Below, in pieces: positions 142-6,067 of a stretch of 64,000 nt of DNA. The stretch is from NCBI GenBank assembly GCA_004212735.1, contig SHBD01000007.1, positions 1-64,000 on the forward strand, in the 5' to 3' direction. Under the pieces are notes generated by a model that saw only the letters and a list, made by a program, of their open reading frames with translations, did no database searches and was not told the origin of the DNA. The DNA is from SAR116 cluster bacterium. Lineage in GTDB: Bacteria; Pseudomonadota; Alphaproteobacteria; Puniceispirillales; Puniceispirillaceae. Numbering within the stretch: the stretch's first letter is position 1; each line of letters opens with the position of its first letter. Both the position numbers and the translations under genes were made by a program.

Positions 142-1704
142 CTAGAAGAATCCGTCAGGAACTTCTGAATAGGACACAAGAACGTTCTTGGTTTGCTGGT
201 AATGGCTAAGCATCATTTTGTGTGTCTCTCTGCCAATACCTGAGTTCTTGTAACCGCCAAAAGCGGCATGAGCTGGGTAGGAATGGTAGTTGTTTACCCA
301 TACGCGACCAGCTTCGATACCCCGCCCCATCCGGTAGCAAATGTTGGCATCTCTCGACCAAACGCCGGCACCAAGGCCGTAAAGCGTATCATTTGCAATG
401 GCAAGAGCCTCAGCCTCATCTTTGAAGGTTGTGACTGACACAACTGGGCCAAAGATTTCTTCCTGGAAGATACGCATCTTGTTGTTGCCCTTGAAGGCTG
501 TGGGCTGAACATAATACCCACCCCCAAGTTGGCCATCCAAAGCGCGCTTTTCGCCGCCAAACAGCACCTCAGCGCCCTCCTGGCGACCGATATCCATGTA
601 AGACATGATCTTTTCGAATTGCTCATTGGAAGCCTGGGCGCCTACCTGAGTGTTTAAATCAAACGGATTGCCACAATTCAACGCAGCAGCGCGTGCCTGA
701 ACCATTTCCATAAAGGGCTCAAAGATATCCTCATGGATGATCGCCCGCGACGGGCAGGTACAAACTTCACCCTGGTTGAAATAAGCGTGAAGGAAACCCT
801 CTACACAACGGGATATGTATTCGTCCGAGCCTTGCATGATGTCTTTGAAGTAGACGTTGGGGCTCTTTCCACCAAGCTCTAGAGTCACGGGGATCAAATT
901 TTCAGAGGCATATTGCATGATCAATCTGCCCGTGGTCGTCTCACCCGTGAATCCCACTTTCTTGATCCGGTTACTGGATGCAAGGGGCTTTCCGGCTTCC
1001 ACACCGAAACCCTGAACAATATTCACAACTCCAGCTGGCAAAAGGTCTTCGATCAATTCCATCAGAACGCAGATGGAAAAAGGTGTCTGCTCAGCAGGCT
1101 TCAAAACAACAGCGTTACCTGCAGCCAGAGCTGGTGCCAATTTCCATGCAGCCATCAAAATTGGAAAATTCCATGGAATAATCTGGGCGACCACACCAAG
1201 CGGCTCGGGATAATGATAGGCCATCATCCCCTGCGCAGAGTTACCACCGCCAGACTGCATACCATCGATATTGCCGATCGTGCCTTCCTGTGCACGGATT
1301 GCGCCGGCAAAATAGCGGAAATGATCTACGGTCAATGGAATATCAGCCGCGAAACCCTCACGGATCGGCTTGCCATTATCCAGGGTTTCCGCCAGCGCCA
1401 ACATCTCTGTGTTTTCTTCGATGCGGTCAGCAATCTTCAGAAGAATGTTGGCACGAATTGCTGGTCCGGTTCGCCCCCACGCTGGGGCCGCTGCATGAGC
1501 TGCATCCAGTGCCAGCTCAACATCATCTTTGTTGGAACGTGGCATTTCGCAGATAATTTTGCCACTGGTCGGCGAGACGTTCTCAAAATATTGGCCATTT
1601 TTTGGCTTGGTCCATTTGCCACCAATAAAGTTCTCATAGCGAGATTTGGGTTTCAGTTTGGCGCCCTCATCGCCGGGGTAAATAAAGGGAGCTGCTTGAT
1701 CCAT
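142..1704 (-). CDS. NAD-dependent aldehyde dehydrogenase, ExaC/AldB type
   Basis: A 520-residue cytoplasmic enzyme oxidising an aliphatic aldehyde (acetaldehyde is typical for this group) to the acid with NAD(P)+. Visible motifs are PWNFP and [12 protein letters not shown] of the cofactor site, the general-base Glu in LELGGKSPN (about residue 276), and the catalytic Cys in [11 protein letters not shown] (about 315). An ATG four codons upstream (1716) overlaps the Shine-Dalgarno GGAGG. That motif sits five bases before ATG 1704, so 1704 is taken as the start. The DUF779 gene downstream supports the ExaC/AldB assignment. The true substrate is an inference. Confidence 0.9.
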
Positions 1705-1870
1705 ATTTTCCTCCATTTTTTAAGACATCAATCTGGACAACCACGCGCTTCGCGTCAACTGCAGACGGTGCGCTTAATCAGCACAGCATATATTTGCTGA
1801 TTGAAAATTAGAGGTGGCAAAACCCCGCGCTCCCGTCATATTTTCTGTGATTAATCTGTGACTCAAACAC

Positions 1871-1904
1871 AAAAAAACCGTCGCTTTCATAATGAAAACA
1901 ACGG
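1871..1904 (-). terminator. Intrinsic terminator downstream of tRNA-Asp
   Basis: On the minus strand an imperfect hairpin (CCGT...TTTCA / TGAAA...ACGG) at 1904-1878 is followed by seven T (1877-1871). It starts seven bases after the CCA end of the tRNA. Confidence 0.75.
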
Positions 1905-1910
1905 CTTGAA

Positions 1911-1987
1911 TGGCGGGAGTGACGGGACTCGAACCCGCGGCCTCTGGCGTGACAGGCCAGCGCTCTAACCAACTGAGCTACACCCCC
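1911..1987 (-). tRNA. tRNA-Asp(GTC)
   Basis: Read on the minus strand, the acceptor arm GGGGGTG pairs with CACTCCC, with one G-T pair. The D-arm GCTCAGTTGGTTAGAGC, anticodon loop CTGTCAC (anticodon GTC), T-arm GGGTTCGAGTCCC, G discriminator and encoded CCA are all present. Length 77 bases including CCA. Confidence 0.97.
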
Positions 1988-2162
1988 AAACCTTTTGTCA
2001 AAAGCCCGAGGCGCACGGTCGAAAACGGTGCGCCCTGAAGGGTGAGAGACAATTAGAGGAAGCCCGTCTGGCTGTCAAGCAAGGCAGCCGAAGAAAACGT
2101 TTTTTTTCTGCCGCAGGGATAGGTTTGATAGGTTGCACCGTGATCAACCGGTCTTTGGGCCG

Positions 2163-2861
2163 TCACTTGCCAAAAACCTGATTTGGCAGCCACAGTGCCA
2201 GTTCCGGAAACAGCATCATGATCGTCAACATCACCACCATCACGCCAACAAAGGGAATGACCGAGCGATAGATGTCGATGATCGAAATTTCCGGTGGGGC
2301 CATCGCCCTCACAAGGAAAAGATTATAGCCAAAGGGCGGTGTCATATAGGCGATCTGGCAGGTGATCGTATAGAGCACCAGCACGACCGAGGGCGGCCTC
2401 AAAATACCAAGTGACGAGCCAGCTTGAATAACACCGGTAATCATCAGTTTGTCATAACCGCGTTTGAGCAATTCCGGCAGGGCAATGGTCGCGCCAATGG
2501 CCATGCCAGCAACAGACCGTCCATTCATCGCCGAGATCAGCACCATCAGCCCGATCGTGCAGATGGCAAGTCCGCCATTGAGCGGCCCCATCCAGACATG
2601 GAACATCCGGTATAAATCATCGGCAATCCAGCTTTCCGACATCACATAACCCATCAAAACGAACATCGGCAGGGTGAGCAGAGGGTACCATTCCATCAAT
2701 TTCATTGAGGCGGTGAACCCCAGCTCCGATCCACCAGTTCCATAGAGGAGAAAAGCGGAAATCACCGCGACAAAGCCGATCGCAACAAATACCCGCTGGC
2801 CAGTCAACAGCATCAGCATCATTGATGAAAACATCAAAACCGCAATGAGCTCATAGGACAT
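2163..2861 (-). pseudogene. TRAP transporter large permease (DctM) with internal deletion
   Basis: The reading frame is open for 232 codons, but DctM proteins are usually about 420-440 residues. The first roughly 165 residues match the N-terminal half (GQRVFVAIGF, LPMFVLMGYVM, SAMNGRSVAGMAIGATIALPEL, the LG.L.PPSVVLVLY loop). The text then jumps to the C-terminal signature (QIAYMTPPFGYNLFLVRAMAPPE) and final membrane segment. About 200 central residues, with several membrane spans, are absent with the frame kept. It follows a truncated dctQ remnant directly, and no DctP gene is present. A functional half-size transporter is unlikely, so I call it a deletion pseudogene. Confidence 0.8.
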
Positions 2862-2864
2862 GTG

Positions 2865-3026
2865 TCAGCGCCCCGCTTTGCGCTGTAAACCATGGCGCGG
2901 CGGCGTTGGCGCACTGCCCTGACGAAGCATCAGAATATCACGGAAAAATTCGGCAATTGATTGTAGCAGCATCAAGACAATGCCAAAAATCATGACGACA
3001 TCGGGTGCACGGTTTACAAAGGCAGC
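2865..3026 (-). pseudogene. TRAP small permease (DctQ) C-terminal remnant
   Basis: On the minus strand about 53 codons are open between a stop at 3029-3027 and the stop at 2867-2865. They read ..NRAPDVVMIFGIVLMLLQSIAEFFRDILMLRQ.., the final membrane helix and basic tail of a DctQ-type small permease. No start codon or N-terminal three-quarters remains. It ends three bases before the ATG of the deleted dctM, the usual tight dctQ-dctM spacing, so both are leftovers of one operon. The truncated end lies about 60 bases from the 3' end of tRNA-Val. Confidence 0.7.
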
Positions 3027-3086
3027 TCATGGGACAACAACCCATCTGCGCGTGGCCGGATAATAACAAGGAAACATAGAAGTAAA

Positions 3087-3162
3087 TGGTGGGTGGTGAG
3101 GGGTTCGAACCCCCGACCTACTCGGTGTAAACGAGTTGCTCTCCCAGCTGAGCTAACCACCC
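3087..3162 (-). tRNA. tRNA-Val(TAC)
   Basis: On the minus strand the acceptor arm GGGTGGT pairs perfectly with ACCACCC. The anticodon stem ACTCG/CGAGT has loop TTTACAC (anticodon TAC). The T-arm GGGGGTTCGAACCCC, discriminator A and encoded CCA are present. Length 76 bases. Confidence 0.97.
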
Positions 3163-3199
3163 GACACCATTCTTCCGTTAGCGTGAATATATGATCCAC

Positions 3200-3232
3200 A
3201 AAAGACGCCGACCCTTATATCGGGCCGGCGTC
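3200..3232 (-). terminator. Intrinsic terminator after hup
   Basis: The hairpin GACGCCGGCCC / GGGTCGGCGTC (one G-T pair) at 3232-3204 is followed by TTTT on the minus strand, 18 bases beyond the HU stop. A-rich flanks on both sides could also let it work in the other direction. Confidence 0.75.
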
Positions 3233-3250
3233 CAAAAAGATAGTCGAAAA

Positions 3251-3526
3251 TTATCCGTTAACTGCGTCTTTCAAAGGAGCGCCTGCTTTAAATTTAGGCT
3301 GTTTTGAAGCTTTAATCTGGATTGTCTCACCAGTGCGTGGATTGCGGCCTGTAGTGGCAGCGCGATGGGCAACAGAAAATGTACCAAAACCAACAATGCG
3401 AACATCTCCGCCTGATTTAAGAGCGCCAGCAATGCTATCAAAAACAGCATCAACAGCGCGGCCAGCATCAGCCTTTGTCAGGCCTGATGAATCAGCGACA
3501 GATGCAATAAGATCATTTTTATTCAT
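3251..3526 (-). CDS. hup: DNA-binding protein HU
   Basis: A 91-residue nucleoid protein of the HU/IHF family that bends DNA non-specifically as a dimer. It starts MNKNDLIASVADSSGLTKADAG and has the conserved beta-arm region GFGTFSV.HRAATTGRNPRTGE, typical of HU-beta, followed by the KFKAGAPLKDAVN C-terminus. Length is normal for the family. It lies downstream of lon, the common arrangement in proteobacteria, but is separated from it by a terminator and has its own promoter-like sequence. Confidence 0.96.
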   Translation of the reverse strand: MNKNDLIASVADSSGLTKADAGRAVDAVFDSIAGALKSGGDVRIVGFGTFSVAHRAATTGRNPRTGETIQIKASKQPKFKAGAPLKDAVNG

Positions 3527-3579
3527 GGTTTGTACCCCCGATATTAGGTTGTGTTTTAGATCCGTTGACCGTACAGAAA

Positions 3580-3606
3580 ATTATAAAAAACGCCAGAAAA
3601 AAGCAA
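3580..3606 (-). promoter_or_regulatory. Putative promoter of hup
   Basis: On the minus strand TATAAT (3585-3580) is preceded by TTGCTT (3606-3601) with a 15-base spacer, about 55 bases before the HU start. The -35 partly overlaps the T-run of the lon terminator. The -10 is perfect, but the spacing is short, so the -35 is uncertain. Confidence 0.45.
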
Positions 3607-3632
3607 CGGGCTTGGCAAAAAACCCAAGCCCG
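3597..3632 (-). terminator. Intrinsic terminator after lon
   Basis: On the minus strand the stem GGGCTTGG/CCAAGCCC (3631-3608, 8-base loop) is followed by GTTGC and then six T (3602-3597). It lies 27 bases past the lon stop. Confidence 0.75.
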
Positions 3633-3658
3633 ACGCCAAATTTACGCTCTATTAATTT

Positions 3659-6067
3659 TTAGTGGGCAACAATATCGTCAACGCCCGTGCGCTCTTCCGC
3701 ACCGGCGATTGGTGCATTTGGATCGGCTGCAATCGCAACTGGCAGTGGTTCGCGCGTCAAGGCCTGTGACAACACCTCATCAACCATCGCCACAGGGATG
3801 ATCTCGAGTCCGTCCTTCACATTGTCCGGAATATCCGCCAGATCTTTCTCATTTTCTTTTGGAATCAACACCGTCTTTAGCCCTCCACGAAGGGCGGCAA
3901 GCAGTTTTTCCTTAAGTCCGCCGATCGGCAGAACGCGGCCACGCAGGGTGATCTCCCCCGTCATCGCCACATCCCGGCGCACCTCAATGCCCGTTACAGC
4001 GGAGATGATGGAAGTGGCCATCGCAACACCGGCAGATGGACCATCCTTTGGCGTTGCGCCTTCAGGGACATGCACATGAAGGTCATGCTTGGCCAGATCT
4101 TCGACATCTATGCCATAGACCTGCGCCCGTGACTTAATGAAGAATTCAGCCGCCTGAATTGATTCTTTCATCACATCGCCGAGCTTTCCAGTGGCACTCA
4201 CCTTGCCTTTTCCGGGAACGCGAACCGCCTCAATCTGCAGCAATTCACCACCGACCTCGGTCCAGGCAAGACCTGTGGTCACGCCAACTTGATCCGCCGC
4301 TTCAATCTCACCAAAGCGGAAGCGGGCAACACCGAGGAAATCCTCAATATTTTCTGGTGTCACGGTCATGCTGGTCGCCTCGCCACTGACAATCTTGGTC
4401 ACCGTCTTACGGGCCATTTTAGCGATCTCGCGCTCCAGATTGCGGACGCCTGCCTCGCGTGTATATAGCCGGATTACCGTGCGGATGGCATCATCGCTGA
4501 TCGACAATTCCCCGTCCTTGAGGCCATGATCATCGATTTGACGCTGGATGAGATGCCTCTTGGCAATTTCCAGCTTTTCATCTTCGGTGTATCCCGACAG
4601 CCGGATGATCTCCATCCTATCCATCAGGGGCTGAGGCATATTCAGCGTGTTTGCCGTGGTAATGAACATCACGTTGGACAGATCAAGATCAAGCTCGAGA
4701 TAATGATCCTGGAAAGAATTGTTCTGTGCTGGATCCAACACCTCGAGTAGGGCTGAGGTTGGGTCCCCACGCCAATCAGCACCGAGCTTGTCAACCTCGT
4801 CCAGCAGAAACAGCGGGTTGTTGGTCGCTGCCTTTTTCATACCCTGAACAATTTTTCCGGGCATTGAGCCGATATAGGTACGACGGTGACCACGAATTTC
4901 CGCCTCGTCACGCACACCACCTAGCGCCATGCGGACATATTTGCGACCTGTCGCCCGGGCAATTGACTTGCCAAGCGATGTTTTGCCAACACCCGGAGGG
5001 CCAACAAGACAAAGGATCGGCCCCTTCATTGATTTTGTGCGTTGTTGGACCGCCAGAAATTCAATTATCCGGTCTTTGACCTTCTCCAATCCAAAATGAT
5101 CCTCATCAAGAATTTCGCGTGCCAGCTTGATGTCTTTTTTCAGGCGACTTGCCTTTTTCCACGGAACAGCCAGCATCCAGTCCAAATAATTGCGGACAAC
5201 GGTTGCCTCGGCACTCATCGGACCCATGTTGCGGAGCTTTTTCAACTCGGCGTCGGCTTTTTCACGCGCTGCCTTTGGCATTTTCAGCTCGGCAAGCGCC
5301 GCTTCCAGCTCATCCAACTCATTGCCGCCATCCTCGCCGTCACCAAGTTCCTTCTGGATGGCCTTCATCTGTTCATTGAGATAGTATTCGCGCTGCGTCT
5401 TTTCCATCTGCCGCTTGACCCGGTTGCGCACTCGCTTTTCCACCTGCAGGGCGCCAATCTCACCCTCCATCAGACCGAAAATACGCTCCAACCGCTCATG
5501 GATATTCAATTGTTCCAGCAATTCCTGCTTTTCCGGGATTTTGATTGCCAGATGCGAGGCGATCATATCGGCGATCTTTTCAGCTTCCTCAACCTGTTCA
5601 ATCGCGTTCAGAACCTCTGACGCGACCTTTTTGTTGAATTTGATATATTGCTCAAACTGCTGCACAGCGGCACGGGCAAGCCCGGTGGTATCTGTCCCCT
5701 GGTCACCATGCTGATCAACCATCACCGCATCGACAGACAGAAAACCGGCATCCGCATTGAGGCTTTCTGGCAAAATCTGCACCCGCTCGCCGCCCTCGAC
5801 GAGGACCTTGACGGCACCATCGGGCAATTTGAGAAGTTGCAAAATAGATCCCACTGTCCCGGTCACATAGAGACCATCGGCATCCGGGTCCTCGAGATCG
5901 GCCTCGGTCTGCGTCACCAAAATGATCTGCTTGTCCTCAGCCATCACGGCTTCCAGCGCCTTGATGGATTTTTCACGACCAACAAATAACGGTACGATCA
6001 TGTGAGGAAACACGACAATGTCGCGTAGCGGCAGAACAGGCAATGAAATGACTTGTGACTCTGACAT
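3659..6067 (-). CDS. lon: ATP-dependent protease Lon
   Basis: An 802-residue cytoplasmic AAA+ serine protease that degrades misfolded and regulatory proteins. It has the full domain order: LON substrate-binding domain (about 1-200, beginning LPVLPLRDIVVFPHMIVPLFVGR), coiled-coil linker, AAA+ module with Walker A GPPGVGKT (356-363) and Walker B LFLLDEVDKL, and the C-terminal protease domain. The catalytic Ser678 is in PKDGPSAG and Lys721 in IGGLKEK. Length is normal. It lies downstream of clpX, from which a terminator-like hairpin separates it, and upstream of hup. No clear sigma-32 promoter could be picked out by eye. Confidence 0.98.
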   Translation of the reverse strand: MSESQVISLPVLPLRDIVVFPHMIVPLFVGREKSIKALEAVMAEDKQIILVTQTEADLEDPDADGLYVTGTVGSILQLLKLPDGAVKVLVEGGERVQILPESLNADAGFLSVDAVMVDQHGDQGTDTTGLARAAVQQFEQYIKFNKKVASEVLNAIEQVEEAEKIADMIASHLAIKIPEKQELLEQLNIHERLERIFGLMEGEIGALQVEKRVRNRVKRQMEKTQREYYLNEQMKAIQKELGDGEDGGNELDELEAALAELKMPKAAREKADAELKKLRNMGPMSAEATVVRNYLDWMLAVPWKKASRLKKDIKLAREILDEDHFGLEKVKDRIIEFLAVQQRTKSMKGPILCLVGPPGVGKTSLGKSIARATGRKYVRMALGGVRDEAEIRGHRRTYIGSMPGKIVQGMKKAATNNPLFLLDEVDKLGADWRGDPTSALLEVLDPAQNNSFQDHYLELDLDLSNVMFITTANTLNMPQPLMDRMEIIRLSGYTEDEKLEIAKRHLIQRQIDDHGLKDGELSISDDAIRTVIRLYTREAGVRNLEREIAKMARKTVTKIVSGEATSMTVTPENIEDFLGVARFRFGEIEAADQVGVTTGLAWTEVGGELLQIEAVRVPGKGKVSATGKLGDVMKESIQAAEFFIKSRAQVYGIDVEDLAKHDLHVHVPEGATPKDGPSAGVAMATSIISAVTGIEVRRDVAMTGEITLRGRVLPIGGLKEKLLAALRGGLKTVLIPKENEKDLADIPDNVKDGLEIIPVAMVDEVLSQALTREPLPVAIAADPNAPIAGAEERTGVDDIVAH

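Follow-up and report, generated by a model that had tools for sequence, protein, structure and literature searches.

A truncated dctM gene and an adjoining piece of dctQ, lying between two tRNA genes in the 64,000-nucleotide stretch of SAR116 cluster bacterium DNA analysed here (the window), are very probably the non-functional remains of a TRAP transporter operon of the dctPQM type, left by ordinary decay through deletions. The dctM pseudogene, hereafter dctM', occupies positions 2163–2861 on the minus strand. It is an open frame of 232 residues, free of stop codons and frameshifts, in which the N-terminal ~164 codons of DctM are joined in frame to the C-terminal ~68 codons. Intact homologues have ~440 residues, so that dctM' falls short of the full length (~12 TM segments) of a functional TRAP transporter. 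The Pfam DctM family (PF06808) matches it in two stretches, at profile positions 44–157 and 357–413.

Intact DctM orthologues (PF06808, TIGR00786) include those of two relatives, G021 (contig RFZL01000037.1, isolate WB5_5_028) and G010, with 88% identity in the N-terminal arm and 79–87% in the C-terminal one. Against the 440-residue protein of G021 (locus L066), dctM' is 88% identical over residues 1–169 and 87% over residues 162–232; the corresponding values for G010 are 88% and 79%. DNA alignment with these full-length genes fixes the junction: the window copy lacks exactly 624 bp, or 208 internal codons, which both relatives hold. The original prediction, of a gene keeping its first ~165 and last ~65 residues and missing about 200 central ones, agrees closely with this. 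The missing middle segment is absent from the rest of the assembly, which contains only distant paralogues. Beyond the 3' end of dctM', homology to the sequence following intact dctM stops after ~11 bp. A search of window positions 1700–3700 returned no sigma-70-like promoter.

The deletion junction, at 2363–2378 on the minus strand, falls in a short imperfect direct repeat of 16 nt. It reads GTGCTCTATACGATCA in the window, while the two arms of the intact G021 gene read GTGCTCTATGCGATGA (N-terminal) and GTTCTCTACACGATCA (C-terminal) and agree with each other at 12 of 16 positions; the ancestral junction is thereby taken from a relative and may differ from the ancestor's own sequence. Among the 683 pairs of sites lying 624 bp apart in G021 dctM, the junction pair is the only one to reach this agreement, a level attained by ~0.02% of pairs 300–900 bp apart. 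The presence of such a repeat at the junction points to a deletion of the slippage type. Replication slippage, or another event mediated by short repeats, would have removed the middle of dctM, with the in-frame outcome being a matter of chance (one in three). Deletion between short direct repeats is a familiar origin of bacterial pseudogenes, and the present case, with its imperfect junction repeat and lost partner genes, resembles those without notable difference.

We looked for the short form of DctM among 86 homologous loci, made up of the best 80 of 575 confirmed ones and six more (L039–L044), and did not find it. L038, which duplicates L066, was left out of this set, and a single contig seems to have been counted under both L040 and L119. 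Both arms of DctM are present in 81 of the loci and are joined in none; relative to the window, the extra sequence between them measures 624 bp in 69 loci, 627 bp in 11 and 804 bp in one. The five single-arm loci (L043, L044, L067, L079 and L087) end near or before a contig end. Within the genus, four of five genomes yield any DctM match, and those outside the window genome are paralogues of at most 43% identity; the four other genomes, 57–73% complete, contain no orthologue of dctM'. Short homologues conserved in other species, which would have spoken against decay, are thus not seen (joined arms in 0 of 81 loci). Intact orthologues elsewhere and a disabling change here are marks of a pseudogene, and dctM' shows both. 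The reading of gene decay with an internal in-frame deletion stands: the arms are joined in none of the 81 two-armed loci, the middle segment is nowhere else in the genome, and radical changes affect conserved positions.

Full-length G021 DctM aligns with SiaM of Photobacterium profundum (PDB 7qha_B) over residues 28–437 (E 2.9e-33), and counting on this alignment places the deletion junction near SiaM residues 157 and 357. Following the SiaM topology given in PMC9971032, the lost segment would comprise part of TM5, TM6–TM9, arm II, HPout (TM10) and part of TM11; compared with SiaM, the window copy has no equivalents of the second scaffold repeat, arm II and HPout. By homology, a translated dctM' would therefore have lost half the scaffold along with the HPout hairpin, and its Na2 site would be incomplete.

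The retained arms carry radical changes at invariant or nearly invariant homologue columns: G101C, L115R, V155R and K57E. In the 85 homologues of our set (best 80 of 575 plus six) that have this arm, G101 and L115 are invariant and the column of V155 holds only V, I or L. Positions counted on the alignment pair L115 with S108 of P. profundum SiaM, and V155 with V148. In PMC9971032, V148 is described as a ligand at Na1 and S106-S108A is reported to have ~3% activity; by alignment, dctM' has arginines at two Na1-site positions. Both PP motifs are retained; the deletion takes away the residues that correspond in the alignment to the HPout loop (G325). A functional TRAP transporter is characterized by twin-proline motifs and by the sites Na1 and Na2, and given L115R, V155R and the loss of the HPout loop these sites are not preserved in dctM'. 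Four unusual residues of dctM' fall at invariant columns, where 80 homologues average 0.25 (L084 also has four). Residues never seen in the other sequences number nine in dctM', while 86 homologues average 1.28 (15 in L043, nine in L084). Its count of unusual residues is high, not unique.

The rest of the operon is in no better state. What remains of dctQ is its last transmembrane helix and C-terminal tail, at 2865–2996 on the minus strand, as already suspected from the original sequence reading. At the DNA level, homology with intact dctQ starts at position 2996; the frame terminates at 2865. Of the small permease DctQ that a functional TRAP transporter needs, only the C-terminal ~43 codons are left. 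The truncated edge had been placed about 60 bases from the 3' end of tRNA-Val, a figure that holds for the open frame around dctQ', which extends to ~57 bp from it, and not for recognisable dctQ homology, which stops 90 bp away. The cognate DctP, also required for function, is indeed missing: in the window genome, whose assembly is 96% complete, no orthologue was found, and the best match to G010 DctP is 25% identical. A separate deletion, ending ~90 bp from tRNA-Val, would have removed dctP and most of dctQ. With arginines in the Na1 site, only half of the scaffold, no HPout hairpin and neither DctQ nor DctP as partner, a working transporter made from dctM' is very unlikely.

The intact operons of G021 and G010 have dctQ followed by dctM, the same order as in the remnant. 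In G010 the surroundings read, in order, RpiR-type regulator, N-formylglutamate amidohydrolase family protein, DctP, DctQ, DctM, glutamine synthetase-like protein, aldehyde dehydrogenase and iron alcohol dehydrogenase. In that genome ~16 kb separate the operon from the inter-tRNA spot, with lon between the two. In G021 the start of dctP is located beyond tRNA-Asp, near a contig end; this gene is split across two contig ends (L193:2-412 and L149:1-594). If the two contigs are neighbours, which their homology suggests, the intact operon would be ~3.5 kb beyond tRNA-Asp. The position of the TRAP operon is not conserved, as it differs between G021 (beyond tRNA-Asp) and G010 (past lon), and we rejected the idea that it is native to the inter-tRNA spot. 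A literature search on SAR116 TRAP transporter pseudogenes gave no paper that, judged by its title, deals with this locus.

The decay of dctM' appears recent. Pairwise dN/dS is 0.060 between the window and G021 and 0.056 between G021 and G010, rough figures since dS is near or above 1 in these pairs and thus near saturation. The low window-G021 value, similar to that of the intact pair, implies that most of the divergence would have accrued under constraint. The dN of the window copy exceeds that of G021 to all seven shared comparison sequences; the excess is small and fits a late loss of constraint.

A low dN/dS would also fit a short protein kept under constraint, either as a mini-DctM or as a membrane protein that has taken on another role. 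We hold such a functional protein to be highly improbable, despite its open frame and a dN/dS of 0.06 with G021, as low as between intact copies: the short form is found in none of the 81 two-armed loci (from the best 80 of 575 plus six), no orthologue exists in the four other genus genomes (57–73% complete), arginines occupy two Na1-site positions, and the DctQ and DctP partners are missing. Another reading would have the genome carry an intact dctM that the assembler collapsed across two similar stretches. In its favour, the genome is in 66 contigs; against it, the similar stretches are only ~16 nt long and imperfect in relatives, which makes a collapse unlikely; ~16 nt is short for an assembly k-mer. 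Moreover, no other contig has the missing segment, dctQ too has been cut short and dctP is gone, and the radical changes at conserved positions suggest that selection on the gene had by then been relaxed. We thus give an assembly artefact little chance.

A further explanation concerns the arrival of the operon and is compatible with its decay: the remnant could be the scar left by the loss of an element that had inserted at the tRNA-Val 3' end, as the original prediction had suggested. The intact tRNA-Val (tac; 3087–3162, minus strand) turns its 3' end toward the adjoining remnant, and the other border of the interval is, as had been noticed, a second intact tRNA, tRNA-Asp (gtc; 1911–1987, minus strand). 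Upstream of the latter, the stretch 2052–2106 (minus strand) is 91% identical to sister genome G003 and represents native flank; the lineage-specific part therefore begins ~57 bp past the dctM' stop. We surveyed the gap in 18 family genomes with both tRNAs on one stretch (17 of 22 stretches plus the window; the remaining five, without one or both tRNAs, were left uncounted). It measures 152–472 bp in 12 of them and 1099–6384 bp in six: the window genome, G003, G004, G010, G029 and G048. On these genomes, the varying gap size does show a spot that gains and loses DNA, and the intervals of some relatives hold other cargo. Neither DctM nor DctP is matched in the gaps of the 17 other genomes. An ABM-domain gene is common to G003 and G004. 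In G004, also a sister genome, the gap (L146:2114-6956, tRNA-Asp to tRNA-Val) contains in addition two genes with caspase domains, one of which has MORN repeats. Gaps of 1.1–1.5 kb with small unrelated ORFs occur in other family members (L179:15060-16371, L183:1988-3450, L197:1988-3095).

The locus is thus variable in relatives, exceeding 1 kb in six of 18, and bears no sign of an integrase-driven element. Our search of the interval for a copy of the tRNA-Val 3' end or for attachment-site repeats gave only similarity between the tRNAs and weak chance repeats. The eight ORFs scanned in relatives' intervals have no integrase domain, and the remnant itself has no integrase. With neither a tRNA 3'-end repeat at the far border nor an integrase, the marks of a tRNA-integrated element, a lost element is not supported, and we regard it as unlikely. 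There is hardly any probability that the fused TM5–TM11 frame is kept as a small membrane protein serving a new function and that, at the same time, the tRNA-Val/tRNA-Asp gap is a family cargo hotspot filled by a dedicated mechanism.

Decay by deletions remains our preferred reading, and its practical consequence was foreseen: the frame could easily be annotated as a normal transporter gene. dctM' scores 105.8 bits with Pfam DctM, over the cut-off of 23.8, and could for that reason receive such an annotation; with TIGR00786 it scores 114.5 bits, under the cut-off of 268.45. dctM' is chiefly an annotation warning, a relic that could be labelled a transporter gene, and it would also provide a clean example of decay via deletion at a short repeat.
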